Source: a virus. Taken from it: a stretch of 64,000 bases of DNA. Below the pieces are notes generated by a model. It did no database searches. It was not told the origin of the DNA and saw nothing but the letters and a program-made list of their open reading frames with translations. Shown here one piece after another: positions 1,964 to 63,729 of this stretch (its first letter is position 1; each line of letters opens with the position of its first letter). A program made the position numbers and the translations under genes. The stretch is from the IMG/VR virus record IMGVR_UViG_3300027742_000001, positions 27,914-91,913 of that record. One strand, given 5' to 3'.

Positions 1964-1996
1964 TTAAGCAAACTTTAATAAATTCTTTGTTATACT
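1964..1996 (+). promoter_or_regulatory. Phage promoter, TTAAGC class
   Basis: TTAAGCAAACTTTAATA begins at 1964 and TATACT at 1991, a spacing of 27 nt between first bases, identical to seven other sites in the window. It lies in the 144-bp gap after the SbcC-like gene and before the ribosome site of the gene at 2026. The leader that follows (TTTGTAAATAAAATTTAAGG) closely resembles the leader at 4471-4495. Confidence 0.75.
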
Positions 1997-2025
1997 TCTT
2001 TGTAAATAAAATTTAAGGAGGAAAA

Positions 2026-2442
2026 ATGCGTATAACAAAGTTAATGAAACTAAGAGATGAAGTATGCCCTATATGTGGAGAACCTAAAGATATTTGTCCT
2101 AGTGAAGAATCATGTCCATATAGGATTAGGGATATTAATACTAATGATACAATACATGAGCAAAATTTAAAAGAGCCAAAACAAGGAGATATTGTTAAGG
2201 CAACAAGAAACTTAGGTAATTATAATTGGCAAGGAACTTATTTTGGTAAATGTAATGATATTTATTTACTAGATTTTAATGGTACTCATTGTATGGTTGC
2301 TAATAAGGTTGAAATTATACCTACTCTTACTAAAAAAGAAGCTAAACAAAAAATATCTGAAATGTTTGCTAACCCTAAAAATATATCAAGTCAAAAGGTT
2401 AGGGAAATAATTGATTTAATTGAGTTAGATAAGGAGAAATAA
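2026..2442 (+). CDS. Small protein with N-terminal Cys cluster, unknown function
   Basis: 138 residues. Four cysteines (C14, C17, C24, C30) form a CPIC...C...C zinc-ribbon-like knuckle. A middle segment rich in beta-type residues (about 55-100) resembles a small SH3-like barrel, and the end is a Lys/Glu-rich helix. It is the first gene after the 1964-1996 promoter with a strong AAGGAGG site. Its stop abuts the TTG start of the next gene. No family recognised; a nucleic-acid-binding role is only a guess from the cysteines. Confidence 0.8.
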   Translation: MRITKLMKLRDEVCPICGEPKDICPSEESCPYRIRDINTNDTIHEQNLKEPKQGDIVKATRNLGNYNWQGTYFGKCNDIYLLDFNGTHCMVANKVEIIPTLTKKEAKQKISEMFANPKNISSQKVREIIDLIELDKEK

Positions 2443-3966
2443 TTGGCAAAAGCTAAAGCAACAAAGAATAAAAGTAATCTAAGTATATATAATATTAAAG
2501 ATACTTTTATAAAGATTTTTTTAGAGTTCATTATTGAGTTAAATAAAATTCCTAATGCTGAACAAAAATTAAATTATCTTAGAAAGGTTTTATATAGGAA
2601 TAATGATAATAGGGCTGAGTTTAATATTGTTCATGGTTATGTTATTAAAAGAATTTTAACTTCACCAACAATTAAAGAAAGGTTTTTACCTTTAGAGAGT
2701 GATTTAGAAAAAGAAACTATAACAGGAAAACAAATAAACTTTCCTCAATTAGATTTTATGGTAGCATATGGTATTAATGAAAAAGAACTTAGACCTTATT
2801 TTGAGGAATATATTTATTCAGAAAAAGGTTTCTTACAAAAGTTCTTAGTAGATTTTATTAATGGAGAGAATGTTTATAAAATCCCTAAAGATATGCTTAA
2901 AGAACTTTGGGATAATAAAAGACTTAGAGTTCAAGAGTACATGACTTTAGATGATGATTTATCTTTACATTATCATTTTATAGGTATGCCCCCTTATTTA
3001 TATAAGCAACAAGTTTATAAGTACCTTGATTTAAAATCTTTTAATAATACTAAGTTCAAAGGGCTTGTTATTCCAACTGATGTTGAGATACATTCTTATT
3101 TTAAAGAACGAAATAGAAAAGCTAGAAGATTTTATGCTTGGCAAAGAACTCTTGAATGGGATAATAATGATACAAAATATAATATAAGATATCCTTGTGT
3201 ACTTTATAAAGGTTCTTTAGTTAAGAAAAGAAAGTTATTATATTTTGTTAGATTAGGAAGTCTTTTAAGGACTAATATTGAGGGAATGTTATTGAATTAT
3301 TTTGAAACAGTATTTAAGAAAGGTTTTTCTAAAAGGTTACTCTTTGTGGGGTATCTTAATGAGGATAACTCTTTAGATATTATGGTAATGACTGAGAATA
3401 AACAACTTACTAATTGTTTTGTTACGGAAAAAGCCTTTCAAATGAATTACAACTATTCTACTTTAACAAAGGATTATAAGAAAATAAGAAAAAACATGGA
3501 ATTCTATGCAGATGAATTTAATATTAAAAAGTTAAAATTGCATAAGTCCGAGGGTTTTGTATTTCATTCTTTACATTATTTGTTAAATTATATGTTGTTG
3601 AATATTGCTCAAGGAGATAAAAGACCTCTAACAATTATGTTTAGGAACTTTTTAATGATAACTAATGGGTTAAATATTAGAAAAGCTCTTATGACAAGAT
3701 ATGAGTCAAAGATACAAGTAGCACATTTTACATATTTAGATACAAAGGAGGAGTTTAATTTACATAGGTCAAGGTTATCTGAAACAGTAGAGATTATACC
3801 TAACTTTCTTAATCAAGAAGTTCATATATTTGAGTTTGAAAGAGGAGGTAGATTTGGGTTATTAGCACCAATGAAGTCTTTTAAGTTCAGCGAAGAGAGT
3901 TATTCCGAAAAGGTGAGCAAGTTAAGACAGTTTAGTCAAGTATTTGCTGAGAAAGATAAATTTTAA
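2443..3966 (+). CDS. Large hypothetical phage protein
   Basis: 507 residues from a TTG start placed six bases after AAGGAG; no ATG fits better. The protein is basic, rich in Lys/Tyr/Phe and predicted mostly globular, without signal peptide, membrane span or an ATPase or nuclease motif that I can see. Its size and position as the main gene of the first early operon (between a Cys-cluster protein and small zinc-ribbon proteins) suggest a DNA-handling or host-takeover role, but the sequence does not show one. Confidence 0.8.
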   Translation: MAKAKATKNKSNLSIYNIKDTFIKIFLEFIIELNKIPNAEQKLNYLRKVLYRNNDNRAEFNIVHGYVIKRILTSPTIKERFLPLESDLEKETITGKQINFPQLDFMVAYGINEKELRPYFEEYIYSEKGFLQKFLVDFINGENVYKIPKDMLKELWDNKRLRVQEYMTLDDDLSLHYHFIGMPPYLYKQQVYKYLDLKSFNNTKFKGLVIPTDVEIHSYFKERNRKARRFYAWQRTLEWDNNDTKYNIRYPCVLYKGSLVKKRKLLYFVRLGSLLRTNIEGMLLNYFETVFKKGFSKRLLFVGYLNEDNSLDIMVMTENKQLTNCFVTEKAFQMNYNYSTLTKDYKKIRKNMEFYADEFNIKKLKLHKSEGFVFHSLHYLLNYMLLNIAQGDKRPLTIMFRNFLMITNGLNIRKALMTRYESKIQVAHFTYLDTKEEFNLHRSRLSETVEIIPNFLNQEVHIFEFERGGRFGLLAPMKSFKFSEESYSEKVSKLRQFSQVFAEKDKF

Positions 3967-3978
3967 AAAGGAGAATAA

Positions 3979-4155
3979 ATGAAAAAGATACAAGGATACG
4001 TTTCAACAGGATATGTTGGTTGTGATGGGGAGTTTGAATTTGAGGTTGAAGAAGATACTCCCGAAGATAAAATTCACGAAATTGCTTTAGATTGTCTATT
4101 TGAAACTATTGAGTGGAGTTGGTGGGAAGTTAAAGATGAGGAAAAAGAATGTTAA
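3979..4155 (+). CDS. Small acidic phage protein (58 aa)
   Basis: Starts at ATG 3979 behind AAAGGAGAATAA and ends 7 bases inside the next gene. The 58-residue product has the pattern STGYVG(C)D.EFEFEVEEDT...EIALD.LFETIEWSWWE, which resembles a small conserved acidic family common in phage early regions; function is unknown. Coding is supported by the ribosome site and the overlap with the following gene. Confidence 0.7.
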   Translation: MKKIQGYVSTGYVGCDGEFEFEVEEDTPEDKIHEIALDCLFETIEWSWWEVKDEEKEC

Positions 4156-4364
4156 AAAAGGAACTCATTGAAAAGTTACAAAATGAGATAAATAAGTTAA
4201 AGGAATTTCCCGATAAAGCAAAGTTCAATGAGATTGTTCTGATAAAGGAAAAGCCTAAATGCCCTCAATGTGGGGAATATGAAGGTAAGAACTTTTCTAG
4301 TGGAGGTTTTATTTATCATCAAGAATATTGTAAATCTTGTGGATATAGTTTTACTGAGGAATAG
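4149..4364 (+). CDS. Zinc-ribbon small protein
   Basis: 71 residues; a basic helical N-terminus is followed by CPQCGEYEGKNF...CKSCGYSF, a typical four-cysteine zinc ribbon. It overlaps the preceding gene's stop (ATGTTAA). This is probably the last gene of the 2026-4364 operon, as the following 134 bp hold the next promoter. Such ribbons in phages often belong to transcription or host-interaction factors; no specific role can be given. Confidence 0.75.
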   Translation: MLKKELIEKLQNEINKLKEFPDKAKFNEIVLIKEKPKCPQCGEYEGKNFSSGGFIYHQEYCKSCGYSFTEE

Positions 4365-4445
4365 GTTACAAAAGTATTGCATATAATAATGTGCAAAGAT
4401 AGCTATTGAAGGTTATTTCATGCAATATATGTTACTAAGGATAGT

Positions 4446-4467
4446 TTAAGCAAAGGTATTATATACT
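4446..4467 (+). promoter_or_regulatory. Variant TTAAGC promoter with short spacing
   Basis: TTAAGCAAAGG begins at 4446 and TATACT at 4462, a spacing of 16 nt, 11 nt (about one helical turn) less than the other members of the family. The leader down to the ATG at 4499 is nearly the same as that at 2000-2025. The 4365-4445 stretch upstream also holds a TTGCA-N10-TGCAA dyad (about 4378-4397). Confidence 0.5.
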
Positions 4468-4498: not shown

Positions 4499-5800
4499 AT
4501 GAAAACAAAGTTAATAAATGAATTCAGACAAAGGTTTGATTTGAGTGAGGAAGATTGGGGAATGTTCTTAGCAGAGTATCAAGAAAAGGATAAACCTTTA
4601 AGAACTCTTTGTGAGGATTATGATATTGAGTATAATGCTTTTAGATATTGTTCTTATCAATTAGGTTTAGATAATGGTACTAAAGCAAGTCGTGTTGAGA
4701 GTATTCTTAAATTAAATAAAGACTTAATGAGAGAACAAGGTAAAGAGTATAGTGTAGAACATGAACTAGAAAGAGAATTAGAGAGTATTGTTAAGAAAAA
4801 TAGACAATTAGTTAGAGGTATTACCCATGCTCGTGATGAGAATAATCATTTAAGAAAGCTTATGAGGGAAGAGGATAGAGAATATAACTTTTATGAGTCA
4901 ATTTATAATGATATTCAACACTCACTAACTGTTTTTAAAGATACTAATTTTCCTAAAAATAATTTAAAACTTATTGATAGGAAAGATTTAAGAAAAGATA
5001 ATACTAAAGCATTTGTCTTATTATCAGATTTGCATTATAATGAATTAGTTAAAGGTCAATTTATAGAAAACCATAATGAATTTGATACTCAGATTTGTTT
5101 GGATGGTATTGATACAACTTTATTTGAAGTTCAGAAATATGAAGCTGATATTTTAAAGATATACTTAGGTGGAGACTTACTTGCAGGTAAAATTCATGGA
5201 TTAGACTTAAAAGGTCAAGTTCCAGTAACACAATCTGTTATAGAATTAGCAAAGTTTTTAGCAGATAGAATTAATACCCTAGCAACTCAGTATAAACATA
5301 TTGATATTATAGCTGTTAATGGTAATCATAGTAGATTAGGTTTATTACCTGTTAGAGATTTAAAAGCTTTTGACTTTGAACACTTAATGTATGAAATAAT
5401 GTTAAGTCATATTAACCAAGATAATGTTAAATCACATTATAGCAATAGTGGTTATGCCATTGATAATATTGGTACAGAAGATAACCCTAAATATTTAGGA
5501 CTTCATCATATGGATATGAAAAGATTTAATCCAACAAATGAATCAGATGTATTAAAGCAATTTGAAATGTTTGATGAATTATTTAATATTAGGGTTATGT
5601 CTATAATGGGAGGACACCAACATAAACCAGTCTTTACTGCTAATAGTAGAGGAGGTAGTTGTTTTATAAATGGTTGTGTTAGTGGTTCTAGTGAATATGG
5701 ATTTAACTCAGACTTCTTACCTTTATATCCTTTTCAATGGGTTGGTGTATGGAATCCTAATGGTTACGCAGATGAACAAAAATGTGTAAGAATAAGATAA
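4499..5800 (+). CDS. Calcineurin-like metallophosphoesterase with N-terminal coiled coil
   Basis: 433 residues. Residues 1-60 look like an HTH-type helical domain, 65-130 are a charged coiled coil, and 170-420 carry the metallophosphoesterase motifs in order: SDLHY (D177, H179), GGD (D226), GNHSR (275-279) and GGHQHKP (H373, H375). This fold covers phosphatases and DNA nucleases including SbcD/Mre11. Its location a few kilobases after the SbcC-like ATPase makes an SbcD-like partner plausible, but the N-terminal part differs from SbcD and the genes are not in one operon, so the substrate is uncertain. Confidence 0.8.
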   Translation: MKTKLINEFRQRFDLSEEDWGMFLAEYQEKDKPLRTLCEDYDIEYNAFRYCSYQLGLDNGTKASRVESILKLNKDLMREQGKEYSVEHELERELESIVKKNRQLVRGITHARDENNHLRKLMREEDREYNFYESIYNDIQHSLTVFKDTNFPKNNLKLIDRKDLRKDNTKAFVLLSDLHYNELVKGQFIENHNEFDTQICLDGIDTTLFEVQKYEADILKIYLGGDLLAGKIHGLDLKGQVPVTQSVIELAKFLADRINTLATQYKHIDIIAVNGNHSRLGLLPVRDLKAFDFEHLMYEIMLSHINQDNVKSHYSNSGYAIDNIGTEDNPKYLGLHHMDMKRFNPTNESDVLKQFEMFDELFNIRVMSIMGGHQHKPVFTANSRGGSCFINGCVSGSSEYGFNSDFLPLYPFQWVGVWNPNGYADEQKCVRIR

Positions 5801-6106: not shown

Positions 6107-6139
6107 TTAAGCAACTTTTAATAATACTTCTTATATACT
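6107..6139 (+). promoter_or_regulatory. Phage promoter, TTAAGC class
   Basis: TTAAGCAACTTTTAATA begins at 6107 and TATACT at 6134: spacing 27 nt, as in the rest of the family. It lies in a 153-bp gap downstream of a stem-loop and heads the run of small + strand genes from 6189 to 10450. Confidence 0.75.
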
Positions 6140-6188: not shown

Positions 6189-6518
6189 ATGTTTTATTTA
6201 GAAGAATATGGACATGATGCAGACAATAATAGATGGATGGAAGTTATTAACTTTGATATTACAGAAGATGATAAAGAGGAAATTCTTGAAGCAATTTATC
6301 CATTATTTATGGATGATAATCTTGGAGAAGTAGTAGTTCCATTGTATTGTTTTATTACAGATGATTTTGTTGATGTAGTTATTAATATTAATGATTACTT
6401 AGAAGATTTAATTGAAATGGGATTATCCGATGAAGAGTATAAAGAAGAACAAGATATTCAAGAATGGTTAAATGATTTAAAAGAAAATCTTAAAGGGGAA
6501 AGTAATGAAAAAGCTTAA
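6189..6518 (+). CDS. Acidic small protein, unknown
   Basis: 109 residues, strongly acidic (many D/E, few K/R), first gene behind the 6107-6139 promoter. No cysteines or membrane span. Small acidic early phage proteins can be DNA mimics or host enzyme inhibitors, but nothing here proves this. Overlaps the next gene by 14 bp. Confidence 0.75.
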   Translation: MFYLEEYGHDADNNRWMEVINFDITEDDKEEILEAIYPLFMDDNLGEVVVPLYCFITDDFVDVVININDYLEDLIEMGLSDEEYKEEQDIQEWLNDLKENLKGESNEKA

Positions 6519-6870
6519 AGGTCTTAGAATAGTTAAGTCTAACAAAAATAGAAAGATTAATTTTAAAAAGTATTTTTATGTATTCCTTAACTCAAATAAT
6601 AAATATGAAGTAACAACGGATAAGTTCTTTATTAATAAAAGAGTTGATATAGTTCCTATCAAGTTATCTCATATAAAGATTTGGGATATATTTAAGGTAG
6701 ACCAATATAGAGATACTCCTTTATATGAATATTATGAAAGAGGTTCTTTTGAGGATTATATGGGATACTTTGTTAGAGTAAATAATTTTGTAAAAGATTA
6801 TAATGAAGAATTTGAGTACAAAATTAAACTAAATGAAGTCAAAAAAGAAAACAAGGAGGAATTATGTTAG
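6505..6870 (+). CDS. Basic small protein, unknown
   Basis: 121 residues, Lys-rich N-terminus (KGLRIVKSNKNRKINFKKYF) and aromatic-rich middle. Starts inside the end of the preceding acidic protein, so the oppositely charged pair is co-translated. No family recognised. Confidence 0.72.
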   Translation: MKKLKGLRIVKSNKNRKINFKKYFYVFLNSNNKYEVTTDKFFINKRVDIVPIKLSHIKIWDIFKVDQYRDTPLYEYYERGSFEDYMGYFVRVNNFVKDYNEEFEYKIKLNEVKKENKEELC

Positions 6871-7205
6871 AAATGTTATTATTTGGGGTTATTTATTTCA
6901 TATGTATTGGTTGGTTATGTAATATTGTTATAGGCTATATTCAAATGCTTTGGTTAATGTTTGTTACTCATAAAGATATTGAAGGGTGTTATGGAGAAGC
7001 TAGGTTAAAAGAATATTGTAAAGAGTCTACTTATAAATTAATTACTTTTGAGAGGTTTATTACTCCATATTTAGGTTCTTTTAAGGTTATTGAATATATA
7101 ATTATGTATTATTATGTTAAAAGAAATTTATCCTCTTATAGAGTGTTTGACTCTTTTGATATTCTAATACAAGTTGATATTCAATTAAGTAAAAAGGAGA
7201 ATTAA
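6864..7205 (+). CDS. Small membrane protein, unknown
   Basis: 113 residues with one strong N-terminal hydrophobic segment (about residues 3-33, long enough for one or two membrane spans) followed by a soluble Tyr/Lys-rich part. AAGGAGG precedes the ATG. Possibly an inner-membrane early protein; function unknown. Confidence 0.7.
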   Translation: MLEMLLFGVIYFICIGWLCNIVIGYIQMLWLMFVTHKDIEGCYGEARLKEYCKESTYKLITFERFITPYLGSFKVIEYIIMYYYVKRNLSSYRVFDSFDILIQVDIQLSKKEN

Positions 7206-7934: not shown

Positions 7935-8441
7935 ATGTTTGGTGAGGGAGAGATAGGTAGAGTAAAAAATGTATTTACAAAGTTGCACTTTAGTTTGATT
8001 CCTAATGAGGAGGAGGCATATAATAATAGTTATACTTATGTAACAAACTATGATAATTACAAAGGATATAGTATTGAAGTTTATGAATCGGAAAACTTTG
8101 TAGCAGATACTTGTTATAATTTAGAGGTTGAAGATGACTTCTTTTGTGAGTACGATTTAACATATAGATACTTTAATATAAAAAGATTAGTAAAGGAATA
8201 TGAAATAAAACCTTTAGAAATATGTACTATTTTAGTTAATTATGATATGGTTTATACAAAAGGTTGGACTGATTGTGGATACGAGTATGATATGGAATTA
8301 GATATTAAAGAAGTACAAGTAAATAGACATCAAAACTTAGAATTTAATACAATGTATAAAACAATACTCCCTAAATGGACTAAGTACCCAATTAAAATGG
8401 AGTATAATAAAAATAGATTATGGGAAAAGTTAGTTGATTAA
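7935..8441 (+). CDS. Hypothetical protein
   Basis: 168 residues, Tyr/Asp/Glu-rich, soluble, directly abutting the preceding gene with GGAGGATAATTAA as ribosome site. No recognisable motif. Confidence 0.72.
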   Translation: MFGEGEIGRVKNVFTKLHFSLIPNEEEAYNNSYTYVTNYDNYKGYSIEVYESENFVADTCYNLEVEDDFFCEYDLTYRYFNIKRLVKEYEIKPLEICTILVNYDMVYTKGWTDCGYEYDMELDIKEVQVNRHQNLEFNTMYKTILPKWTKYPIKMEYNKNRLWEKLVD

Positions 8442-8502
8442 GCTTATTTTAATAAAAGGTATTGTACAATTATATTATCAAAACAAACAAAAAGGAGAAT
8501 AT

Positions 8503-8865
8503 ATGAAAGATTTAAATATACCAATTTATAGAGCAAAAAAGATTGATAGTGATGAATATGTAATAGGTTATTATTTAAAAATGGGTAGTACACATTATAT
8601 TTATAGAAATAAAATGTTTGAGGGGGTTATATGTGTTGATAAATTAACCTTAGCAATACATTTTCCTAATATGTTAGATAGTGACTATAATCCAATATTT
8701 GCTAGTTTATCAGAAGATGGGAAAGGTGGTGATATATGTAGTTTTAGTGACCATAAAGATTTAACAGCAATGTGGAATTCATATTCTTTAGATTTTGATT
8801 TTGGTAATGTAAGAGATATGAAAAACTATCACATGGACTGCAAAGTAGTAGGAATACAAGAATAA
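8503..8865 (+). CDS. YopX-like phage protein
   Basis: 120 residues from ATG 8503, chosen because AAAAAGGAGAATAT precedes it; an in-frame start at 8434 lacks a site. The opening IYRAKKIDSDEYVIGYY and the later TLAIHFPNMLDSDYNPIFASLSEDGKGGD pattern resemble the YopX-type proteins widespread in phages, whose role is unknown. Confidence 0.65.
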   Translation: MKDLNIPIYRAKKIDSDEYVIGYYLKMGSTHYIYRNKMFEGVICVDKLTLAIHFPNMLDSDYNPIFASLSEDGKGGDICSFSDHKDLTAMWNSYSLDFDFGNVRDMKNYHMDCKVVGIQE

Positions 8866-14977: not shown

Positions 14978-15463
14978 TTATATTATTTTTAGTAAGATTT
15001 GTTGAATTGCCTCATATGCTTGTCTATGTATGACTGTTTCTTTTAAAGTTTTTGTTTCAATAAGTTCCCATTCTCTATTAGTAAATATTGTAATTAAGTC
15101 TTGAATAATGTTTCTTATTTCAAGGGGTTTAATATGAATTCTTCTTATACAAGGAAACTTTTCTAATTCATCTTTAAGTTGTTCATATGCACTACATACT
15201 ATAAAAGCTGTTTGCATTTGTAACTTAGATATTTCTTTTATAAGCTCTATTCCATTGACATTAGGCATTTTCATGTCTGTTACAACAACCTTTATAGGTT
15301 TATTACTATTAAGTCTTTCCTTAAAAATATCTAATGCAACTTTTCCATCCTCAGCAGTAACTACATTAAAACCTATTGTTCTAAGTTGCTCTGCTGTTTT
15401 CTCTCTTATTAATACTTCATCTTCAACTAAAAGGATTTCAGTACTTGTTGTTTCTATAATCAT
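14978..15463 (-). CDS. Phage-encoded response regulator (receiver domain only)
   Basis: 161 residues. Residues 8-125 form a canonical REC domain: acidic pocket VEDE (E14, D15), phosphoacceptor Asp63 in VVVTDMKMP, Ser91 in FIVCSAY and Lys112 in HIKPLE. The C-terminal 35 residues are helical with no DNA-binding output domain. A protein of this type is normally phosphorylated by a histidine kinase and signals by protein contact. It lies 12 bp upstream of the membrane protein gene and close to the holin, in the late transcript. No kinase is visible in the window, so a host kinase would be needed, or it acts as a phosphate sink. Such genes are rare in phages. Confidence 0.88.
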   Translation of the reverse strand: MIIETTSTEILLVEDEVLIREKTAEQLRTIGFNVVTAEDGKVALDIFKERLNSNKPIKVVVTDMKMPNVNGIELIKEISKLQMQTAFIVCSAYEQLKDELEKFPCIRRIHIKPLEIRNIIQDLITIFTNREWELIETKTLKETVIHRQAYEAIQQILLKII

Positions 15464-23070: not shown

Positions 23071-26000
23071 TTAATATAAACTTCTTATTCTTGAATCTTC
23101 GTTTTTAGCTCTTAACATAATATTAATTACTTTTTCGTATTCATCATTTTCATTATTCTTAGTAAGCTCTTCAATCATATCTGCTTCAATAGGTGTTCCC
23201 GTACTATTTTCAATATTAATTGTTGTAGGGGTATTTACAATAGTTGCTCCTGTAACACCCATTTGAGGAACTGTTCCATTTTTATTAATATAATCAAGCA
23301 TTGGTCTTGTATCAGAATTAACGGAGTCTTTTTTAGTGAAATATTCTCCTCCCATTGCAAATACATGGGAGCCACTAGCAGAGCCTAAATATAAATCATC
23401 CCTAACACCTGAACCTCCACTAAGTATTCCTCCATTAGCAAATTTCTTAGTAGATAAAAATCCTCCATTTGCTTTAGCAGTTATTGGTAATTCTCCCCCC
23501 TCACTAAATCCAAATAAACTTCCTATTCCTGAAACAGCTTGTTTAACAATTAATGTTCTAATAAGTTCTTGGTAAATAGATTTAATAACACCTTTTGCTA
23601 GGGTTTCTAAATCCCCGAACCCCTCAGAAGTAACATCAAAGAAATCCATCATACCATTCTCTAATGATTGAAGTCCTACATTACCTACTTGTTCAAGGGC
23701 TTCATTTAAGGTAGGAACTTCTTTAGCATAATCTGTAAAGGCTTTATTTAATCCTTGATATGCTTTCTCTTGTGCTATAATATTTTCTAAAGCTTTTGTT
23801 TGATTTTGTTGTTCTTCTTCTGATAACTTTTGAAAGTCTTTTGAAGCTCTTAAATCTCTTAAAGCTTTCTCTGAAGCTAGTTCTTCTTTCTTCTTACCAA
23901 TTAATTCATCTACTCTTATTTGTTGAGTCTTTATTTTATTCTCAACTCTACCATAAGCTAAATCAATAGCATTTGCTTCTTTAGTTTGTGCTTTTTGGTA
24001 TTCATTTCCTAATTTTAATAATTTAGTTATTGCTAATTGTTTTGCTTCTTCTGAAACTAACTTAGCATAGTTTTCCCCTCTAACATTTAATTCTAATAAA
24101 AGTAAATCTGAGGTTTCTCTATTAAGAGAGTTTATCTTAGCTTGTTCAACAAGTTGTGTTATCATTTTATTTGTTTTAGAATCTTGTTGTTTAAGTTGTT
24201 TTTCTGTTTCTGAGGTTTGAGCTTTTTGTTTGGTTTCTATCTTCTCTTGTGATTTTAAGATAGAATTTTGAGCTTCATTTATTCTAGTTAATTGTTCAAA
24301 GGCTTTTGTATATGCGTTAACTTGTAAATCAATATTTAAAACCTCTTGTTTTGATTTACCTTCTTTACTTTGTTGTAACTTATAAATTTCTTCTTGAATT
24401 CTAATAGCCTCAGAAGATACATCCCCAAAGGTAGTAACTCCTGATAAATCTAATTTAATACCACTTGCTTCTAAGTCACTTTGAATTTTAGTTACAAATG
24501 TAGGTATCTCTTTTTGTATTCTATTAAGTCTATCTAAGTTTAAACCTTTTAGAATATCTAAGTCTTTACCTTTTGCTATATCAACACTTTTGTTTATTTT
24601 AGTTATAGAAGCATTTACATTGTCTAAATCTGCTGAACTAAAAAACTTTAAAGTATTTTTAAAAGGGATAGTTTCCAAATCCCCTAAACTACCTTTTAAA
24701 GATTTAATATTGTTTTCATAAGTTATTATTAGATTATTAATACTTTCCCATTGTTTAGAACCCTCTTTAATAGAATCACTATTTAGTAACTCTTTGTTCT
24801 TTTCAATAAGGGCTGTATAACTTTTTATCTGAGAATCAACTTGATTTTTGTTTAATGAACTTAGAATATTTGATTTATTCTTTGTTATATCTTGATTTAA
24901 AGTATTAGTTTTTTTAAGTAATTCATTAATTTTTGAAATACTAGCATAATCATTGTCATCTTTAGCTTGAGTCTTTAATGTATATAAAGTAGTTCTTATT
25001 AAGTCTAATCTATTAGTAACTTCTTCAAATTCCTTTGTATCACCTAATCCCTTTTTGAACTTATTAAAAGAAGTTGAGGTTGTATCAATAGCATTTGTAA
25101 GAGTACTTAATTGAACATCTTTACTAACAGCTACTCCAAAGAATTTAAACTCATCAACAGTATTATTCATAGCTCTTGCTAATTCTGTTGCTTTATCAAT
25201 GAAAGGGTCAAAAACACTTTGAGCAATACCTTTAGCATTTTCTCCAAATTTAGCCCATGTCTTTCTATAATCTTCTGTAATATTTTTAGCTTTATCTAGT
25301 TCCTCAGAAGTAACATTTAAACTTTCTCTTAAGTTTACTTGTATCTCACCAGCATTATTTTGAATAGCTTGTAAAACATTCTTTGTAAGAACTTCTACTC
25401 CACTTAATGCTTCATTATAACTTTCTCTATTAAAACTTTTTATTTTCTCTAAGAATTCTAATAAGGCTTTATTACTTTCTTCTCCACCTTGAGATATTCT
25501 TTTAGCTAAATTTGCTTGATTAACTCCAATAGTTTCAAAATACTTTTGAACAGCCCCACTATTACTACTTAAGGCTATTGTAAGTTTTCTAATTTGTGTA
25601 CCTATTGTTGATGCATTAAAGGATGCATTTGATAATGCACTTGCTAAACCATTTACAGCATCAATAGTTAATCCAGTAGCTTTTGCAGAGGCTAAGGCAA
25701 AGTTGGCAAAGGTATTAATATCTTGTGTACCTAATCTAGATTTATTTGCTAAGTATGCTAATTTAGCACCTAATTCATCAACACTTGATATAACTTGTCC
25801 AAATTGGTCTTTTCCAAATACTTGTACGAAAGAGATAATAGAACTAGCTGATTGCTCAATAGAATCCCCTGTCAATAATGCTAATTTAATAACTACCTCA
25901 GAAGCTTCTGCTACTTGTTCTAATGCTAAACCAGCTCTTGATAGTTCTAATGCAACTTTATTAATATCTCCGAGTTGTTCACCATAAGTTTTTCCTAGTT

Positions 26001-26832
26001 CAGCTAAATTACCTTCTAGTCTTTCGGCACTAGCTGAAGATATATCTAGAATAGTTTCTAATCTTTTTATTCCCGATTCATATTCTAAGGTATACTCTAT
26101 ACCAGCCCTCATTGATTGAGTAACTCCAGCAATAGTAGCAAATAAAGCAGTATATCCTAAACTTCTTCCTACAATTCCTTTTGCTAATCCACTTAAAGGA
26201 ATATCACTTAATTCAGCTTTTGTATCGGCTACTTGATTTTTTAATTGTTGATACTTGGCTTTTGCTGAGTCTATTGTTTTTAAATCAGATGATGTTAAGT
26301 TAACTATACCTTTTGAGCTTAGTGTTCCAATAATTTCTTGTTGTTTTCTAATCTCAGACATTTGAGAAGAAAGCTTACTTAATCCACTACTTGAACCAAT
26401 AGTTTTGTAATGACCTTGTAATGTTTGAGCTTCTCTATTTAGAGCATTAAATTTATCTTGTATTTTGCTAAGTTCAGTTGATTGTGATTGTAATCCCGTA
26501 GTAGTTTTTAAATTAAGACTATTTACATCTTTTACATATTGTTTTATTTGAGTATATTGTTTTACACTATTTGCTAGTTGTTCGTTATTCTTTATTGTTC
26601 CTGTTATATCACCACTTTTATACTTCGATATATCTGAACTAATTTGTTTTAGAATATTACTCTTTCTAATTAAATCTTCATAAACTCCACTTTCTTTACT
26701 TAATGAAGCTAATGTTTTCTCTGTTTCAGTAGTTAGTGAGGTTATGTTCTTTTCTAATTTAGTTAACCCACTTTGAATGTCATTAACATTAAGTTTTATT
26801 ATGGTTTCTATTACTTGTTCTTCACTTGGCAT
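23071..26832 (-). CDS. Tape measure protein
   Basis: 1253 residues, by far helical, with long coiled-coil stretches, a hydrophobic Gly/Ala segment near 220-240 (LAKGIVGRSLGYTALFATIAG) and a second near 1100-1120. The central TMP domain (ESGIKRLETILDISSASAERLEGNLAELGKTYG) is recognisable. The tape measure sets tail length; at about 1.5 angstrom per residue the tail would be about 190 nm (inference). Preceded by a special 236-bp gap with its own promoter. Confidence 0.9.
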   Translation of the reverse strand: MPSEEQVIETIIKLNVNDIQSGLTKLEKNITSLTTETEKTLASLSKESGVYEDLIRKSNILKQISSDISKYKSGDITGTIKNNEQLANSVKQYTQIKQYVKDVNSLNLKTTTGLQSQSTELSKIQDKFNALNREAQTLQGHYKTIGSSSGLSKLSSQMSEIRKQQEIIGTLSSKGIVNLTSSDLKTIDSAKAKYQQLKNQVADTKAELSDIPLSGLAKGIVGRSLGYTALFATIAGVTQSMRAGIEYTLEYESGIKRLETILDISSASAERLEGNLAELGKTYGEQLGDINKVALELSRAGLALEQVAEASEVVIKLALLTGDSIEQSASSIISFVQVFGKDQFGQVISSVDELGAKLAYLANKSRLGTQDINTFANFALASAKATGLTIDAVNGLASALSNASFNASTIGTQIRKLTIALSSNSGAVQKYFETIGVNQANLAKRISQGGEESNKALLEFLEKIKSFNRESYNEALSGVEVLTKNVLQAIQNNAGEIQVNLRESLNVTSEELDKAKNITEDYRKTWAKFGENAKGIAQSVFDPFIDKATELARAMNNTVDEFKFFGVAVSKDVQLSTLTNAIDTTSTSFNKFKKGLGDTKEFEEVTNRLDLIRTTLYTLKTQAKDDNDYASISKINELLKKTNTLNQDITKNKSNILSSLNKNQVDSQIKSYTALIEKNKELLNSDSIKEGSKQWESINNLIITYENNIKSLKGSLGDLETIPFKNTLKFFSSADLDNVNASITKINKSVDIAKGKDLDILKGLNLDRLNRIQKEIPTFVTKIQSDLEASGIKLDLSGVTTFGDVSSEAIRIQEEIYKLQQSKEGKSKQEVLNIDLQVNAYTKAFEQLTRINEAQNSILKSQEKIETKQKAQTSETEKQLKQQDSKTNKMITQLVEQAKINSLNRETSDLLLLELNVRGENYAKLVSEEAKQLAITKLLKLGNEYQKAQTKEANAIDLAYGRVENKIKTQQIRVDELIGKKKEELASEKALRDLRASKDFQKLSEEEQQNQTKALENIIAQEKAYQGLNKAFTDYAKEVPTLNEALEQVGNVGLQSLENGMMDFFDVTSEGFGDLETLAKGVIKSIYQELIRTLIVKQAVSGIGSLFGFSEGGELPITAKANGGFLSTKKFANGGILSGGSGVRDDLYLGSASGSHVFAMGGEYFTKKDSVNSDTRPMLDYINKNGTVPQMGVTGATIVNTPTTINIENSTGTPIEADMIEELTKNNENDEYEKVINIMLRAKNEDSRIRSLY

Positions 26833-26923
26833 TAAATACTCCTAAAATATCTTTTGTATTCATATTATTAATAAAACTAAATTCTGTATTTAACTTAATT
26901 AATAATATTACCTTAACTTGTTC

Positions 26924-26943
26924 CAAGAGGATTATACCTCTTG
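26924..26943 (-). repeat. Stem-loop before the tape measure gene
   Basis: CAAGAGG-tataat-CCTCTTG read on the - strand, a 7-bp perfect stem. It overlaps the end of the second micro-ORF. No T-run follows, so it is not an obvious terminator; it may pause polymerase or protect the mRNA. Its loop sequence TATAAT is also a possible -10 box. Confidence 0.55.
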
Positions 26944-26967
26944 AACACCTTTTATAATAGTTTTCAT
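26932..26967 (-). CDS. Micro-ORF 2 (11 aa) upstream of the tape measure gene
   Basis: Reads MKTIIKGVQEV and stops in the hairpin. It starts two bases after the stop of micro-ORF 1. The short length makes this a candidate leader peptide only. Confidence 0.3.
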   Translation of the reverse strand: MKTIIKGVQEV

Positions 26968-26968
26968 A

Positions 26969-27001
26969 TTACCACTCCATTCCACTTATAACACCATACA
27001 T
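26969..27001 (-). CDS. Micro-ORF 1 (10 aa) with strong ribosome site
   Basis: Reads MYGVISGMEW, starting 8 nt after the strong site AAAGGAGG and 30 bp after the -10 box of the 27063-27031 promoter. The ribosome site cannot serve a longer reading frame, which suggests a translated leader peptide. Confidence 0.4.
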   Translation of the reverse strand: MYGVISGMEW

Positions 27002-27030
27002 AGTAATACCTCCTTTTAGTTTGAAGTAAT

Positions 27031-27063
27031 ATTATATCAAAATAAACCTTAATAATAAGTTAA
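27031..27063 (-). promoter_or_regulatory. Minus-strand phage promoter, TTAAC class
   Basis: On the - strand TTAACTTATTATTAAGG begins at 27063 and TATAAT at 27036: spacing 27 nt, the same as the + strand family. It lies directly after the GT stop codon and would give extra transcripts of the tape measure and downstream tail genes. Confidence 0.7.
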
Positions 27064-32152: not shown

Positions 32153-33637
32153 CTATTTTATGTGTTTAATATATACTTTGTTACCACAATCCCAATATCT
32201 TAAGTAATCATTATTCAACATATTTTCATATTCAGTTAGATTAGAATCATATACTTCTAGTTTATCTTTTAACTTATGCTTCATAAACTTTTGTCTATTA
32301 AGTACCTCTAAAGAGCCTTCTTTAAAATAATAATAATTAGGTTTACTTTCATGTGTAAAATAAAAACCTAATGATTCATATAAAGAACCATCAAATATGC
32401 TCTTATCACAATAACTAACTAAAGTTCCTTTAAAGTTTCTTTCAAAGTATTTTAATAACTTACTCGCTCCTCCAATAACTGAAGTGCCTAATTTGTTACA
32501 AAATCTTATAAGTTCATAATCATGTTTATTACTAAATCTAGATTTTCCAAAAGTCATTATTGATACTAAATCATTATTATAAATTAACCCATACTTTAAT
32601 GTGCTTGAAGAATATCCTTGTAAATGATTATCATTAATAAAATCTTTTGCTTCCTTTGTGCTTAACTCAACTAAAGTACATTTTCTAGCATATATTTTAT
32701 TAGTAACAATTCCTAATCTCTTTTTGATTAAATCTTTTATTATGTCTTGTTTATTAATCCATTGGTGTTCAAAGATATGTAATAATTGAATCCCTTTTTG
32801 ATTTGCTACGTTTGTCTTGTTTAAGTGATAATCTTTTGTTTTACCTCTTATACCTTCTGAGTGCCAATACAATCCATTATATTCAAACCCTATTGCTAAA
32901 TCTTCAATATAAACATCTATTTCTTTTAAATCTAAAATTCTACTATTTTGAGTTATCTCTTTATCTGTTAAAGATTGAATAAATTCATATAGTACTATTT
33001 CACCTTTAGATTTAACATTTTGACATCCACAAGAAGTTTTAGAGCCATTTCTTATATAAGTATTTTGCCATTCAAAAACTTCATCACAAAAAGGACATTT
33101 AAACTTAGAGATATATCTATCAAAATCTTTGTGCTTTTTTATATTAGGTTCAACTACCTCAATATTATTTAAAGTTTGACCTTTTTTTGGTTTTTGTTTT
33201 CTTAATGTACACCCACATGATTTTCTACCTTTTTTACTAACCTCTTTAATAGTAGTAATAAAAGAATCTCCACAGTCTACACATTTAAACTTAGCTTTTC
33301 TATCTTTATGACTTGATTCAGTTTTTTCAATAGGAAATAATTCAAGTATCTCTACATTATATTTACCAATCTTTTGTCCTACTTTATACTTATTGTAAGG
33401 TAATTGACACCCACAAGATATTTTAGCATTAGTTCTCCCTCGTATAACGTGGTCTAAACTAGCTTCAAAAGGTTCTTTACAAAAAGGACATTCAAAAATA
33501 GCTCTCTTTTGACTTCTATTTTTACCTTCAGGAATCCAATAATCAGTAAGCATTTTAACTTTCTGAGTTCCTACGTAATCACCTTTATTATATTTTCTAT
33601 TTCTTAGTTTATTTTGCTTATTTTTTTCTGTATCCAA
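32153..33637 (-). CDS. Vsr-like (EDxHD-type) homing endonuclease
   Basis: 494 residues. Residues 15-215 hold four zinc ribbons of the type KCVDCGDSF and FKCPFCDEVF, each followed by CGC; residues 216-320 contain KSKGEIVLYEFI..., KEIDVYIEDLAIGFEYNGLYWHSE and the IQLLHIFEHQW motif, matching the Vsr-like nuclease fold of I-Bth0305I-type homing endonucleases. Residues 330-480 resemble the GNAT-like domain common at the C-terminus of such proteins (HLQGYSSSTLKYGLI...IGGASKLLKYF). It is inserted between the major capsid and the connector-region genes. An inverted repeat lies at both sides of it. Confidence 0.82.
   Translation of the reverse strand: MDTEKNKQNKLRNRKYNKGDYVGTQKVKMLTDYWIPEGKNRSQKRAIFECPFCKEPFEASLDHVIRGRTNAKISCGCQLPYNKYKVGQKIGKYNVEILELFPIEKTESSHKDRKAKFKCVDCGDSFITTIKEVSKKGRKSCGCTLRKQKPKKGQTLNNIEVVEPNIKKHKDFDRYISKFKCPFCDEVFEWQNTYIRNGSKTSCGCQNVKSKGEIVLYEFIQSLTDKEITQNSRILDLKEIDVYIEDLAIGFEYNGLYWHSEGIRGKTKDYHLNKTNVANQKGIQLLHIFEHQWINKQDIIKDLIKKRLGIVTNKIYARKCTLVELSTKEAKDFINDNHLQGYSSSTLKYGLIYNNDLVSIMTFGKSRFSNKHDYELIRFCNKLGTSVIGGASKLLKYFERNFKGTLVSYCDKSIFDGSLYESLGFYFTHESKPNYYYFKEGSLEVLNRQKFMKHKLKDKLEVYDSNLTEYENMLNNDYLRYWDCGNKVYIKHIK
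32180..32202. repeat. Inverted repeat arm, left (within endonuclease 3' end)
   Basis: GTTACCACAATCCC... 23 nt on the + strand, exact reverse complement of 33701-33723. On the - strand it encodes the conserved LRYWDCGNK ending of the endonuclease. Confidence 0.8.
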
Positions 33638-33700
33638 CTATTAACTCCTTTTTGTTTTACTATAACATAAGGTAGCTTAATAATTACTTAATACAAATAC

Positions 33701-41334: not shown

Positions 41335-41600
41335 GTTTTTATAAATTTTGAAATTTGTTTATTTTAGGGTTATTTTTTATTAAGTTTTCTTTAATTTTAA
41401 CCTAACTTTAAGGTATATTTTTGTACCATTTTGTCACGTAAGAATTTTGAAAAAGTTGGGCAGGGTTTTTTCTCCCATTTTATGGTAGCTAGAGTATACT
41501 TTTTTACCTAAAATCATTAAAAACCTACACAATATATGGTAAGGGGGTACCCTTCCTATTCTTCTTACTAATATCTTACAAACAAAAAGGAGGTAAAAGA
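41335..41600. other. Intergenic region between the late and replication blocks
   Basis: Contains an ACCCTAA/TTAGGGT inverted repeat (41328-41334 and 41364-41370), the 41397-41429 promoter, a second TATACT box at 41495-41500, and an AAGGG-ggta-CCCTT hairpin near 41540. Candidate place for a packaging site or origin: it lies upstream of the small terminase gene. No longer reading frame seen. Confidence 0.45.
41397..41429 (+). promoter_or_regulatory. Phage promoter, TTAACC class
   Basis: TTAACCTAACTTTAAGG starts at 41397 and TACCAT at 41424, spacing 27 nt. Heads the polymerase-like gene at 41601. The ACCT/AGGT dyad (7-nt spacer) is present. Confidence 0.68.
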
Positions 41601-44189: not shown

Positions 44190-44222
44190 TTAACCTAAGT
44201 TTAAGGTTATATAATATATAAT
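44190..44222 (+). promoter_or_regulatory. Phage promoter, TTAACC class with dyad
   Basis: TTAACCTAAGTTTAAGG starts at 44190, TATAAT at 44217: spacing 27. TAACCT (44191-44196) and AGGTTA (44204-44209) form a perfect inverted repeat with a 7-nt spacer. Heads the operon of unknown DNA protein, ThyX, protease and ribonucleotide reductase. Confidence 0.75.
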
Positions 44223-50160: not shown

Positions 50161-50188
50161 CCTTAAAGTATTTAACCTAACTTTAAGG
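50161..50188 (+). promoter_or_regulatory. CCTTAAAGT inverted repeat overlapping the SSB promoter
   Basis: CCTTAAAGT (50161-50169) and ACTTTAAGG (50180-50188), 9-bp arms with a 10-nt spacer. It covers the upstream box of the 50172-50204 promoter, so it could be an operator or a terminator for nrdB. Confidence 0.5.
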
Positions 50189-50204
50189 AATAGTTGTATA
50201 TAAT
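50172..50204 (+). promoter_or_regulatory. Phage promoter, TTAACC class
   Basis: TTAACCTAACTTTAAGG starts at 50172, TATAAT at 50199: spacing 27. Heads the SSB-like gene at 50279 and the genes that follow. Confidence 0.75.
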
Positions 50205-50278: not shown

Positions 50279-51259
50279 ATGGCAAGAGAATTGCACACAC
50301 TAAATGCTGAGGAAACTAACTTAGTAAATGAATTTGTTGAGGGGGGTATTGCTGAAACACCTGAAGAAGCTTTACAATTATTAATTGATGCTGGAGAGAT
50401 TACTGATACAGAATCTAGTGGTGGAGCTTCATCATTTATGCCTGAAGGGTTTTTGGAATTAAAATTTAGTTCAGGACATCAAAGGTCAGGATTTACAGTT
50501 GCTAATAGACAAGCTAAAAAAGAAAAAAATAAAGAATTTGTTTTTGAGAGTGGTGTTTACTACTATGGTACTAAACTTGTTAAAGATAAAGATACTGGAA
50601 GTATTAACTTTGAAGAAAGTTTGGTTGGAGAAAATTTAGGAGATAATCCTGAGATAGTTATTACAGGTATTCAATATGGTGGTTCTAGATATATTCCAAA
50701 TGCTAAAGATAACGTTTCAACAACTTTTGCACCTAATATGTTTACAGAAGGTCAAAAATCAATGATTGACTTTAATTCTAAGAAATCTTTTTATCAAATT
50801 AGACAAGATTTATTTACTGAATATGAAGTTGACCCTAAAAAACCTGAAACAAGAAAGAATATTCCTGATAATAGAAAAGTAAGTTTTGAAGCTCATGTAT
50901 TTGGTTTAGTTAAAATCAATGATGAATGGAAACCTTTTATGACAACTGAAAAAGTAAAATCTAATGATAGAGATTTCTTATATGATTTTAATGAAGCAAA
51001 TAAAGGTAAACAAAAGTCTAAAATTATTGCTAAAATTGATGTTGAAGAAGATGCTGATGGAAACTTTATTAAGAAAGCTGTTTTCTCAGAAGATATTTCA
51101 GCAGAAGATTATAAGAGTACTTTTTCTAAACTTGTAATGGAAAACATGAAAGCTGTTTCAAAATTCTTAGCAGAACAAAAGCAAGGAATTAAAGCTAATA
51201 AAGAAGATTCTAAGGATTCCGATACTGAAACAGAAGATGAACAAATTGATTGGGATTAA
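50279..51259 (+). CDS. Single-stranded DNA-binding protein, putative
   Basis: 326 residues. The centre is beta-rich and basic in parts; the C-terminus ends in a strongly acidic tail (SDTETEDEQIDWD), typical of phage and bacterial SSBs, used to recruit partners. It follows the nucleotide genes and has its own promoter, as expected for an abundant replication protein. No specific SSB motif could be confirmed. Confidence 0.6.
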   Translation: MARELHTLNAEETNLVNEFVEGGIAETPEEALQLLIDAGEITDTESSGGASSFMPEGFLELKFSSGHQRSGFTVANRQAKKEKNKEFVFESGVYYYGTKLVKDKDTGSINFEESLVGENLGDNPEIVITGIQYGGSRYIPNAKDNVSTTFAPNMFTEGQKSMIDFNSKKSFYQIRQDLFTEYEVDPKKPETRKNIPDNRKVSFEAHVFGLVKINDEWKPFMTTEKVKSNDRDFLYDFNEANKGKQKSKIIAKIDVEEDADGNFIKKAVFSEDISAEDYKSTFSKLVMENMKAVSKFLAEQKQGIKANKEDSKDSDTETEDEQIDWD

Positions 51260-52529: not shown

Positions 52530-53004
52530 AGAAAAAGAAGAAAAGTTTATATTAACAGATTCTCTAAGAGAATGGAGAAAAGAACGAAACATTAATAATA
52601 TTAGTAGAGAAACTTACGTTAAGCAAGTTCTTGAAGAGTTACTTGAATTATATTTAACTGATAAAAAAGCTATTGATAAAAATACTTTAGCATTGTATGA
52701 TTCTTGGTTTAAACATTTAGAGGGTAATATGTTAAGTGTTGACTCCTTTATAGATGTAACACAAGATATACAAGTTTTTAGTGTAAATGCTAGTGAGATT
52801 TTAGGTTATGATAATAACAAATGTAATGAAGAAGTTTTTAAACATATTTCTTGTAGAAAACAAGACCCTCAACAAAAAGCTGAATGGGATACCTTTGGAA
52901 GTAAAGGTCAGAAGTGGCAAAAATGGAGAGAGCAACCTTTAAATGAACTTTATGAGCCTAACTATGAAGTTTGTAAATTAAATAGTAATGAATACCTTTA
53001 TTAA
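52522..53004 (+). CDS. MazG / phosphoribosyl-ATP pyrophosphohydrolase-like protein
   Basis: 160 residues. VKQVLEELLELYL (E-E-x2-E) and DSFIDVTQDIQVFSVNASEILGYD...EEVFKHISCRKQDPQQ with D-x3-D match the phage MazG-like/PRA-PH family, where acidic residues bind magnesium and nucleoside triphosphate pyrophosphate is cut. Phage versions may lower host (p)ppGpp or clean nucleotide pools. Next to endonuclease VII and PhoH-like genes. Confidence 0.78.
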   Translation: MNKEKEEKFILTDSLREWRKERNINNISRETYVKQVLEELLELYLTDKKAIDKNTLALYDSWFKHLEGNMLSVDSFIDVTQDIQVFSVNASEILGYDNNKCNEEVFKHISCRKQDPQQKAEWDTFGSKGQKWQKWREQPLNELYEPNYEVCKLNSNEYLY

Positions 53005-53521
53005 AAGTCTTATTCCTAAAGGGGAATTAATTCAATTAAAACACTCTGATATAAAACCTCTTAGAGATAAGTTATTATCTGAAATAAATAATACTTGTCC
53101 TCTTTGTGGTAAAGAAATACAAGATGGAAAGGCTATCTTAGAACATTCCCATATAAAGGGGGTTGGTGGAACTGGATTAATAAGGGGTGTTTGTTGTAGT
53201 TCATGCAATATTCTACTTGGTAAGGTTGAAAATAACTGTAAAAGGTATAATATTTCTTTACAAGAACTTCCTAATGTTTTAGTACAGATGGCTACTTGGT
53301 TAAGTAAAGAACATTTACCTTTTGTACACCCAAATGAGAAACCTAAAGAGCCTATTTTAACAAAGAGTTCTTATAATGAGCTTAAAAAGGTTATTTTAGA
53401 AAATAATTTTACAAAAGATATGAAAAAGTTACCTAAATATCGAGATAAAAAACAAAAATTAACAAAAGTTTTGCAAGAAATGTTTACAAAATACAATGTA
53501 GAGCCTAAATTTTATAAATAA
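52988..53521 (+). CDS. Endonuclease VII-like Holliday junction resolvase
   Basis: 177 residues. NNTCPLCGK (C37, C40), ILEHSH (H53), CCSSCNILLG (C70, C73, N74) match T4 endonuclease VII: two CxxC pairs, catalytic His and Asn at the expected spacing. Resolves branched DNA before packaging. It overlaps the MazG-like gene by 17 bp; the ribosome site is poor, so it is likely coupled to that gene. Confidence 0.82.
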   Translation: MNTFIKSLIPKGELIQLKHSDIKPLRDKLLSEINNTCPLCGKEIQDGKAILEHSHIKGVGGTGLIRGVCCSSCNILLGKVENNCKRYNISLQELPNVLVQMATWLSKEHLPFVHPNEKPKEPILTKSSYNELKKVILENNFTKDMKKLPKYRDKKQKLTKVLQEMFTKYNVEPKFYK

Positions 53522-55070: not shown

Positions 55071-55103
55071 TTAAGCAAACTTTTATAAACTATCTGATAT
55101 AAT
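55071..55103 (+). promoter_or_regulatory. Phage promoter, TTAAGC class
   Basis: TTAAGCAAACTTTTATA starts at 55071, TATAAT at 55098, spacing 27. Heads the small-gene block 55136-59186. Confidence 0.78.
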
Positions 55104-59210: not shown

Positions 59211-59620
59211 TTTTATTCTAGTGAGTTTTAAAAAGAGGGGGCTTTTTGGGTGAGGTTAGTGGGGTATTCTTTTTTGAGTATCCTTTGTGAGAAGGTTTCA
59301 AATGGGTTTGTTAAACGTGGTTTGTTTGATAATTGTGTAGGGGGTTGTTTGATTGGTGTATTTCTTAAAGTTAGCTTAAATAGGTATTTGGGTTTAATAG
59401 TTATATTTGGGTCGGTACAGATGATAACAATTATCAATATCCGTGTATCCTCCCCCTATGATAACAAAACTAATTATCAAAACCAATAAAACAAAACTTA
59501 TTATTAACCAATTTAATAAACGATACTTATTATCAATACTAATTAAACAATCTATCATAACATAATCATACAGTACATCTAAAAAATATTATAATTTAAG
59601 CTTTATTTTATTAAAAAGCC
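59211..59620. other. Non-coding region with strand composition flip, possible origin
   Basis: About 400 bp without a credible gene. 59222-59420 is G/T-rich on the + strand; 59450-59580 is almost G-free and A/C-rich, with a sharp switch near 59430. It includes TGATAA-caa-TTATCA palindromes (59425-59440) and repeated ACTTATTAT motifs (59500-59555). Such skew switches and AT-rich repeats are typical of origins. Confidence 0.45.
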
Positions 59621-62240: not shown

Positions 62241-62262
62241 AATTAAAAATAAAGGAAATAAA

Positions 62263-62472: not shown

Positions 62473-62482
62473 AAGGCTTAAG

Positions 62483-62629
62483 ATGAAAATAACAAAAAGA
62501 AACATTAAAGAGATGAACAAAAGAGTATCTTATATTAAAACTATTGATATAAAGAGTTTAAGAAGTGGTTCTATTAGAGTTAATAAAAGTAATACATTAA
62601 CAAATAAAACATTAAATAAAACAATTTAA
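62483..62629 (+). CDS. Small basic protein (48 aa)
   Basis: MKITKRNIKEMNKRVSYIKT; ends NKTLNKTI. Site AAAAGGCTTAAG. Basic, maybe nucleic-acid-binding; uncertain. Confidence 0.5.
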   Translation: MKITKRNIKEMNKRVSYIKTIDIKSLRSGSIRVNKSNTLTNKTLNKTI

Positions 62630-62640
62630 AGGGGTAAATT

Positions 62641-62766
62641 ATGAAAAAATACTTAAAATATAAAGTTTGGGATAAAAATTATCATAGACCATATTATAGA
62701 TACAATAATAAAATATTTCATAACTGGATAGATTTGCATAATTTTATCAATAATAAAGTAAAATAA
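62641..62766 (+). CDS. Small basic aromatic protein (41 aa)
   Basis: MKKYLKYKVWDKNYHRPYYR; AAAGGGGTAAATT before the ATG. Last gene before the structured region. Confidence 0.55.
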   Translation: MKKYLKYKVWDKNYHRPYYRYNNKIFHNWIDLHNFINNKVK

Positions 62767-62823
62767 AAACAATAAAAACAAATACTTAAAAATCATACTG
62801 TTAAAAATCTCTTTTAAAGGGTG

Positions 62824-62929
62824 CCAAAAATAAAGGCTATTACAAAAAGTTAAATAATAAATATTGTACAAATTAATTGTATAAGATAATTTTATTTAAT
62901 GATTTATTTGTAATAGCCTTTATTTTTGG
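62824..62929. repeat. Perfect 23-bp inverted repeat with 60-nt centre
   Basis: CCAAAAATAAAGGCTATTAC... at 62824-62846 and its exact complement at 62907-62929. Inside, TTAAATAA/TTATTTAA arms extend the fold. Long hairpin, role unknown (terminator, non-coding RNA or replication element). Confidence 0.75.
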
Positions 62930-63185
62930 TTAATTTTTATTTGAGTTCTAAAGAGTTCTAAGAGTAGTAAATATATTAAAGAGTTATTTATTAAGCAATA
63001 TATTAAAAGGCTATTTATAGCTAATTATTGCTTAATAATGTACTTATATTTTATTTGTACATATAAAGGGTATAAAAGAGTTAAATAAGATATTTATATA
63101 CATATAGAGTGTATAGACTATATTTACAGTATATATTGCTTACAAAGGCTTTTATATACTAAATTTTATTAAAAGGATATGGAGC
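62930..63185. other. Gene-poor stretch, structured AT-rich DNA
   Basis: Beyond the 62988-63038 repeat it holds an ATGTAC-N13-GTACAT dyad near 63038-63062 and no frame above 40 codons with a ribosome site. Confidence 0.5.
62988..63038. repeat. 13-bp inverted repeat with nested short dyad
   Basis: TTATTAAGCAATA (62988-63000) and TATTGCTTAATAA (63026-63038); the centre holds GGCTAT-tt-ATAGC. A second large hairpin near the first. Confidence 0.65.
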
Positions 63186-63290
63186 ATGGAATTTATCAAA
63201 GATAACTTAATAGAGTTTATACAGTTAGTTATGTATATAGGAACTATTATTTTAATACTTGTTTTGTTATTGAATAGTAATAAGGATTAA
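63186..63290 (+). CDS. Single-span membrane peptide (34 aa)
   Basis: MEFIKDNLIEFIQLVMYIGTI then ILILVLLLNSNKD; AAAAGGATATGGAGC site. A hydrophobic span with charged ends. Isolated in the gene-poor region; unknown. Confidence 0.5.
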   Translation: MEFIKDNLIEFIQLVMYIGTIILILVLLLNSNKD

Positions 63291-63511
63291 GTAACTAAAT
63301 AATATATCTATACTAAGCTTATAAGGGCTTTTAACTGTAAAGGTATATAAACATAGCTTAAGAGGTTATTTTGCTTATATTTGCTTAGTATAGGCTTTTA
63401 AAAGGGTATTGTAATAAGATAGCTTAGTTAAATAGTTATAAATAAAATATAAAGGATAGAATATTTGTGAAAAGATTTTTAAGAAGTTCAAAAAAAGAAA
63501 AATATTATATA
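63291..63511. other. AT-rich gap without a convincing gene
   Basis: No supported frame. A minus-strand frame of 72 codons here is low-complexity and lacks a ribosome site. Holds a - strand TATAAT (63509-63504) next to the Fur-like boxes. Confidence 0.5.
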
Positions 63512-63565
63512 AAATGATAATGATAATTAGTCTCAAAAAGAAATGATAATGATAATAATTCTCAA
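63512..63565. promoter_or_regulatory. Two Fur-box-like sites in tandem
   Basis: AAATGATAATGATAATTAGT and AAATGATAATGATAATAATT each followed by CTCAA, period 29 nt, 23 of 25 bases the same. Against the E. coli Fur consensus they score 16/19 and 17/19 by eye. Near a - strand TATAAT at 63509-63504. Confidence 0.6.
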
Positions 63566-63696
63566 TAATATATAGAGAAAATATATAAAACATAGTAAAT
63601 TACACAATTTGGGGAGATTTGGGAACTTTTTTGAAAAATCAGAAATCCGTTTTCAGAAATATTTTATTTAGAGATAAGTTTCAAAAAGATTTTTAG

Positions 63697-63729
63697 TTAA
63701 GAAAGTTTTAAGAAAAAGTATAATATAAT
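63697..63729 (+). promoter_or_regulatory. Phage promoter, TTAAG variant
   Basis: TTAAGAAAGTTTTAAGA starts at 63697, TATAAT at 63724: spacing 27. A second TATAAT at 63719 overlaps. Serves the gene at 63760. Confidence 0.68.

Follow-up and report, generated by a model that had tools for sequence, protein, structure and literature searches.

In Helicobacter pylori, the essential orphan regulator HP1043 (HsrA) is an activator of the OmpR/PhoB family (PMC5253667, PMC8345958). Its site, ttTAAG-N5-tTTAAg, consists of two TTTAAG hexamers whose centres are 11 bp apart, and lies directly upstream of the -10 element of promoters in which the -35 element is missing; the first hexamer is the more conserved one, and at hp1227 the site spans -42 to -26 (PMC5253667, PMC8345958). 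CosR, the Campylobacter orthologue of HP1043, has a DNA-binding domain that is 83% identical and can replace HP1043, and a homologue is known from Arcobacter (PMC3139631). A CosR consensus, tttaAanAaAAaTtAtgaTTt, was derived from three footprints (PMC3139631).

A comparable arrangement was found in a 64,000-nt stretch of virus DNA (the window, to which the coordinates below refer unless another record is named). The window is part of a 91,913-bp virus record, G000, with a GC content of 27%. The first 99 bp of this record are identical to its last 99 bp and a 189-aa gene reads through the junction; G000 is therefore a complete genome, about 91.8 kb long and circularly permuted. G001, a relative represented by a collinear contig of 72 kb, shares about 72-80% nucleotide identity with G000 across most aligned stretches.

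The first-pass annotation had described eight sites with a TTAA[GC]..A.CTTTAA box 27 nt before a TATAAT-like hexamer. All eight are present at their positions, and the distance from TTAA to the hexamer is exactly 27 nt in 8/8. The literal pattern holds for three of them (1964, 41397 and 50172), the other five being at least one letter off; in site 63697, for instance, positions 6 and 9 are A and G. The same pattern also matches 59347-59379 (-), without a -10 element. A position-weight matrix was trained on the eight sites and converged on G000 and G001. At a threshold of 15.5, it detected 26 sites in G000, against 0.5 expected (maximum 2) in second-order Markov simulations, and 15 sites in G001, again against 0.5. 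A matrix built solely from five other phages recovered the same sites, including all of the original eight. TATAAT (at most one mismatch) occurs at offset 27 for 23 of 45 G000 boxes, and at every other offset for five at most.

Most G000 sites (20/26) lie outside genes, in a genome that is only 9.8% non-coding. Nearly all sites point toward a downstream gene, with a median of 33 nt from the -10 element to the next start, and the start codon most often follows the end of the -10 by about 30 nt. Several sites are located inside the upstream gene, just ahead of the next one, a placement that would suit operon-internal promoters. These results confirmed that the observation is real and that the family is larger than eight sites, and supported the view that it is a promoter family whose upstream box exceeds the length of a sigma-70 -35 element.

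Within the window, four sites were added to the original eight (4435, 7070, 8438 and 33659-33691 on the minus strand). On the plus strand, the promoter at 1964..1996 (box TTAAGCAAACTTTAA, -10 TATACT, score 25.1) lies 29 nt before gene 2026-2442, and the one at 4435..4467 (score 21.3), a CTAAG-N5-GTTTAAG variant with -10 TATACT, precedes gene 4499-5800. The promoter at 6107..6139 (score 22.4) heads a small-gene block starting at 6189 and has an orthologous site in G001. It is followed by a probable operon-internal promoter at 7070..7102 (box TTTAGGTTCTTTTAAGG, score 20.9), inside gene 6864-7205 with the next start 102 nt away, and by a promoter at 8438..8470 (-10 TACAAT, score 20.2) before gene 8503-8865. 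Further along the same strand, the promoter at 55071..55103 (score 24.4) heads small genes from 55136. The last one, at 63697..63729 (box TTAAGAAAGTTTTAAG, score 24.4), serves the 189-aa gene that spans the junction of the contig and closes across the 99-bp terminal overlap. Upstream of it, the region 62630-63690 is about 1 kb long without clear genes and contains an imperfect inverted repeat (about 62824-62929). A second stretch of about 1 kb without clear genes, with internal repeats, is found at G000:1770-2910, and both are candidates for a replication or packaging region.

The late genes at 10501-41160 (-) have only two box promoters. One, at 27031..27063 (-) on the late strand (-10 TATAAT, score 19.7), is located 198 nt before gene 23071-26832. 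The interval 26833-27031 (-) between this promoter and the 1253-aa gene holds very short ORFs and may be a leader. The other, at 33659..33691 (-) (-10 TATAGT), precedes the homing endonuclease gene 32153-33637 by 21 nt; its score of 16.2 rises to 22.5 with the independent matrix.

The three remaining plus-strand promoters have a TTAACC-type box. They are located at 41397..41429 (weak -10 TACCAT, score 24.6), where the late and early blocks diverge, at 44190..44222 (score 26.8), at the head of a ThyX / Clp protease / ribonucleotide reductase operon, and at 50172..50204 (score 28.4), before gene 50279-51259. A division of labour had been proposed in which the GC variant heads small-gene blocks and the CC variant replication and nucleotide operons. 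Only these three CC sites stood behind the proposal, which was not supported: the CC form before gene 50279 is not conserved in G001, where the orthologous promoter reads CAAAGT, and functional GC and CC classes were therefore rejected. The CC form recurs in other phages and is dominant in G026; the first half-site probably tolerates it as a variant.

The box itself is a tandem repeat, TTAAG-N5-TTTAAG, that has a period of 11 bp and whose start is exactly 27 nt ahead of TATAAT. The logo of 34 sites from two phages reads TTAAG(C)-AA-(C)TTTAAG(G/A)AA ... TATAAT. Its half-sites, at about -39 and -28, are 11 bp or one helical turn apart. The most informative base of the promoter is the G at index 4, after the first TTAA (28/34 sites, 1.9 bits), and conservation is lower at its counterpart in the second half-site, the G at index 15 (23/34 sites, 1.25 bits). 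An unsupervised count of TTAAG-TTAAG spacings peaked at 11 in the tested phages, with additional peaks at 7 and 12 in CP220. A canonical sigma-70 -35 element (TTGACA-like, about 17 nt before the -10) is absent, and its place is taken by a (G/C)NNAAC-type sequence. The geometry TTAA-N7-TTAA, which is that of CtrA sites, is also contained in the box. CtrA sites usually carry C after TTAA.

In sequence, spacing and position, the phage box equals the published HP1043/HsrA site. Two TTTAAG half-sites are 5 bp apart (logo of 34 sites; seven phages), the box adjoins the -10 element directly with the -35 absent, as seen from the offset-27 peak in seven phages, and the order of conservation is shared, the first half-site being stronger than the second. 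The CosR consensus is less like the box than the HP1043 site is, which counts against a reading by HsrA/CosR.

In order to follow the motif beyond this genome, IMG/VR was scanned for TTAAG-N5-TTTAAG-N11-TATAAT, and many contigs had multiple matches. Campylobacter phages were among the matches, with the GenBank records NCTC12673 (135,041), CP220 (177,534), CPX (132,662), CP81 (132,454), PC14 (134,927), CP30A (133,572) and CPt10 (175,720). Isolated Campylobacter phages carry about 26-45 sites (at most two mismatches), mostly on one strand, versus 0-3 for the reversed pattern. The G000/G001 matrix, applied unchanged, found 25 sites in NCTC12673 and 27 in CP220, and 45, 20 and 22 in the metagenomic phages G014, G026 and G030, respectively, where about 0-1 were expected; almost all are intergenic. 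Unrelated Campylobacter phages share this promoter design. Eight control phages (T4, T5, K, 949, phiCD27, P-SSM2, HTVC008M and KHP30) gave zero sites with the consensus at up to two mismatches. Since KHP30 is a Helicobacter phage, not every phage of Campylobacterota uses the box. Metabolic enzymes, nucleases and homing endonucleases are the only clear proteins that G000 has in common with these Campylobacter phages.

The host of the window phage is suggested by two of these proteins. The homing endonuclease (32153..33637, -) matches an NCTC12673 protein with 52.6% identity across 272 aa (blastp), and its top tblastn matches listed are all from Campylobacter phages. The top matches of the endonuclease VII (52988..53521, +) are the Campylobacter phages CP220 and CPt10 (41-44% identity). 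Together with the GC content of 27% and the missing -35, these matches point to a low-GC member of the Campylobacterota, which we infer as the host; Arcobacter would be a guess. As host markers, gene 4499-5800 had three weak matches only, and the receiver protein 14978-15463, with only weak Colwellia and Syntrophomonadaceae matches, was uninformative. Neither a nucleotide search nor a capsid-protein tblastn against phages gave a match, and the terminase has only about 23% identity to T5-like phages.

Taken together, these features make it probable, on sequence grounds, that the sites are promoters of a Campylobacterota phage used by the host RNA polymerase, in which the -35 element is replaced by a predicted site of the host's HsrA/CosR. 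That the upstream box is an activator site is the most likely reading. In such a scheme, host sigma-70 RNA polymerase would transcribe the phage genes from the box promoters, the tandem site with its 11-bp period being the target of the host's essential orphan OmpR/PhoB-type response regulator, namely HsrA in Helicobacter, CosR in Campylobacter and orthologues elsewhere. A dimer would occupy both half-sites, TTAAG at about -39 and TTTAAG at about -28, from one face of the helix and touch the polymerase bound at the -10, and transcription would begin about 6-10 nt downstream of the -10. Whether several unrelated Campylobacterota phage lineages have each come independently to place the majority of their non-late genes under the essential and undeletable regulator HsrA/CosR is, in our estimate, evenly balanced.

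Expression data exist for one of the box-bearing phages. An RNA-seq study of NCTC12673 attributed most phage transcription to two new A/T-rich motifs; no regulator was named and CosR is unmentioned in the text (PMC6024767). This same phage has 25 box sites. One of the two motifs is probably the box, and the second is presumably the T4-like late sequence TATAAATA. The latter is intergenic in 33/68 occurrences in NCTC12673 and in 22/27 in G030. It was not enriched between genes in the window phage (7/43), where no late signal was found.

The best surviving alternative, although an unlikely one, is that these are ordinary host sigma-70 promoters with a periodic A/T-rich signal instead of the -35, for which no activator would be needed. 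Promoters of C. jejuni have a periodic A/T pattern and an extended -10 (TGxTATAAT) with no -35 (PMC3656092), and the half-site period of 11 and the T-rich stretch upstream of the -10 fit this pattern. However, A/T-periodicity does not predict the informative Gs at index 4 and index 15, and the same Gs occur in most of the other phages, including those at 33-37% GC.

Slightly less probable still is a reader of the box encoded by the phage itself, either an activator or a protein that appropriates sigma, as MotA/AsiA do in T4. An activator adjoining the -10 is typical of T4 middle promoters, and a 77-aa protein (L006:13937-14170) whose helix-turn-helix weakly resembles sigma-70 region 4 (Pfam E 7e-4) is a possible phage transcription factor. 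The sigma-like model, however, matches only one other of the seven phages, CP220, at an annotated T4-late-factor-like gene. Neither the OmpR-type DNA-binding domain (PF00486, Trans_reg_C) nor MotA (PF09114, found in T4 as positive control) is present in any of the seven phages, and nothing should be missing from the G000 record, which closes on itself. No regulator is common to the box-bearing phages, only metabolic and endonuclease genes. A search for a T7-type RNA polymerase, run without positive control, found none. The first-pass annotation had left the choice between a phage-coded activator and a host factor. The host factor is favoured, because the same box and spacing are found in phages sharing almost only metabolic and endonuclease genes, and because the box equals the HP1043/HsrA site in phages that have no OmpR-type domain or MotA. 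The late block of the window also encodes a 161-aa CheY-like receiver (14978-15463, -; PF00072, E 2e-18). As a candidate activator it was rejected, no DNA-binding domain being found in it and the protein not being found in G001. Besides, a 218-aa protein at L006:7822-8478 has an end domain like the T7 gp5.9 RecBCD inhibitor (PF25708, E 9e-16).

That the box is a CtrA site and the host an AT-rich alphaproteobacterium is very improbable, for although the TTAA-to-TTAA geometry is identical and phage promoters regulated by the host's CtrA are known (PMC9437464), the endonuclease matches and the isolates sharing the box are those of Campylobacter phages, the conserved G that follows each TTAA agrees with HsrA, and the Pelagibacter phage HTVC008M has no sites.

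If the host's HsrA/CosR does read these promoters, its box would be a phage-wide dependency and a marker of the host phylum, by which metagenomic phages could be assigned without CRISPR spacers. Neither Helicobacter nor Campylobacter can dispense with HsrA/CosR, and HsrA inhibitors are under development. Phage genomes would then offer an independent and abundant set of HsrA/CosR targets, with 20-45 strong, evolutionarily refined sites each, as well as a readout of the regulator's activity, and would help to explain a possible tie between phages and regulator. The box could also account for the unnamed RNA-seq promoter motifs of Campylobacter phage NCTC12673.

A literature search returned no paper tying HP1043, HsrA or CosR to phage promoters; on this weak negative evidence, the HsrA/CosR case is apparently unreported, whereas the reading of phage promoters by a host OmpR-type regulator is already known for CtrA. 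In alphaproteobacterial phages (PMC9437464), as is predicted here, sites of a host OmpR-type master regulator with TTAA-N7-TTAA geometry occur in unrelated phages. The regulator and the host phylum would be different, and CtrA sites cluster in one region, in contrast to the box sites, which occur throughout the genome at one per operon. T4 middle promoters likewise have an activator box in place of the -35, adjoining TATAAT, but they use MotA and one short box, whereas the phages studied here have no MotA and two half-sites. The HP1043/HsrA promoters (hp1227, tlpB, cncR1 and others) are chromosomal and their binding is footprinted, whereas binding at the phage sites is predicted; like the phage promoters, they combine ttTAAG-N5-tTTAAg with a period of 11, no -35 and a stronger first half-site.
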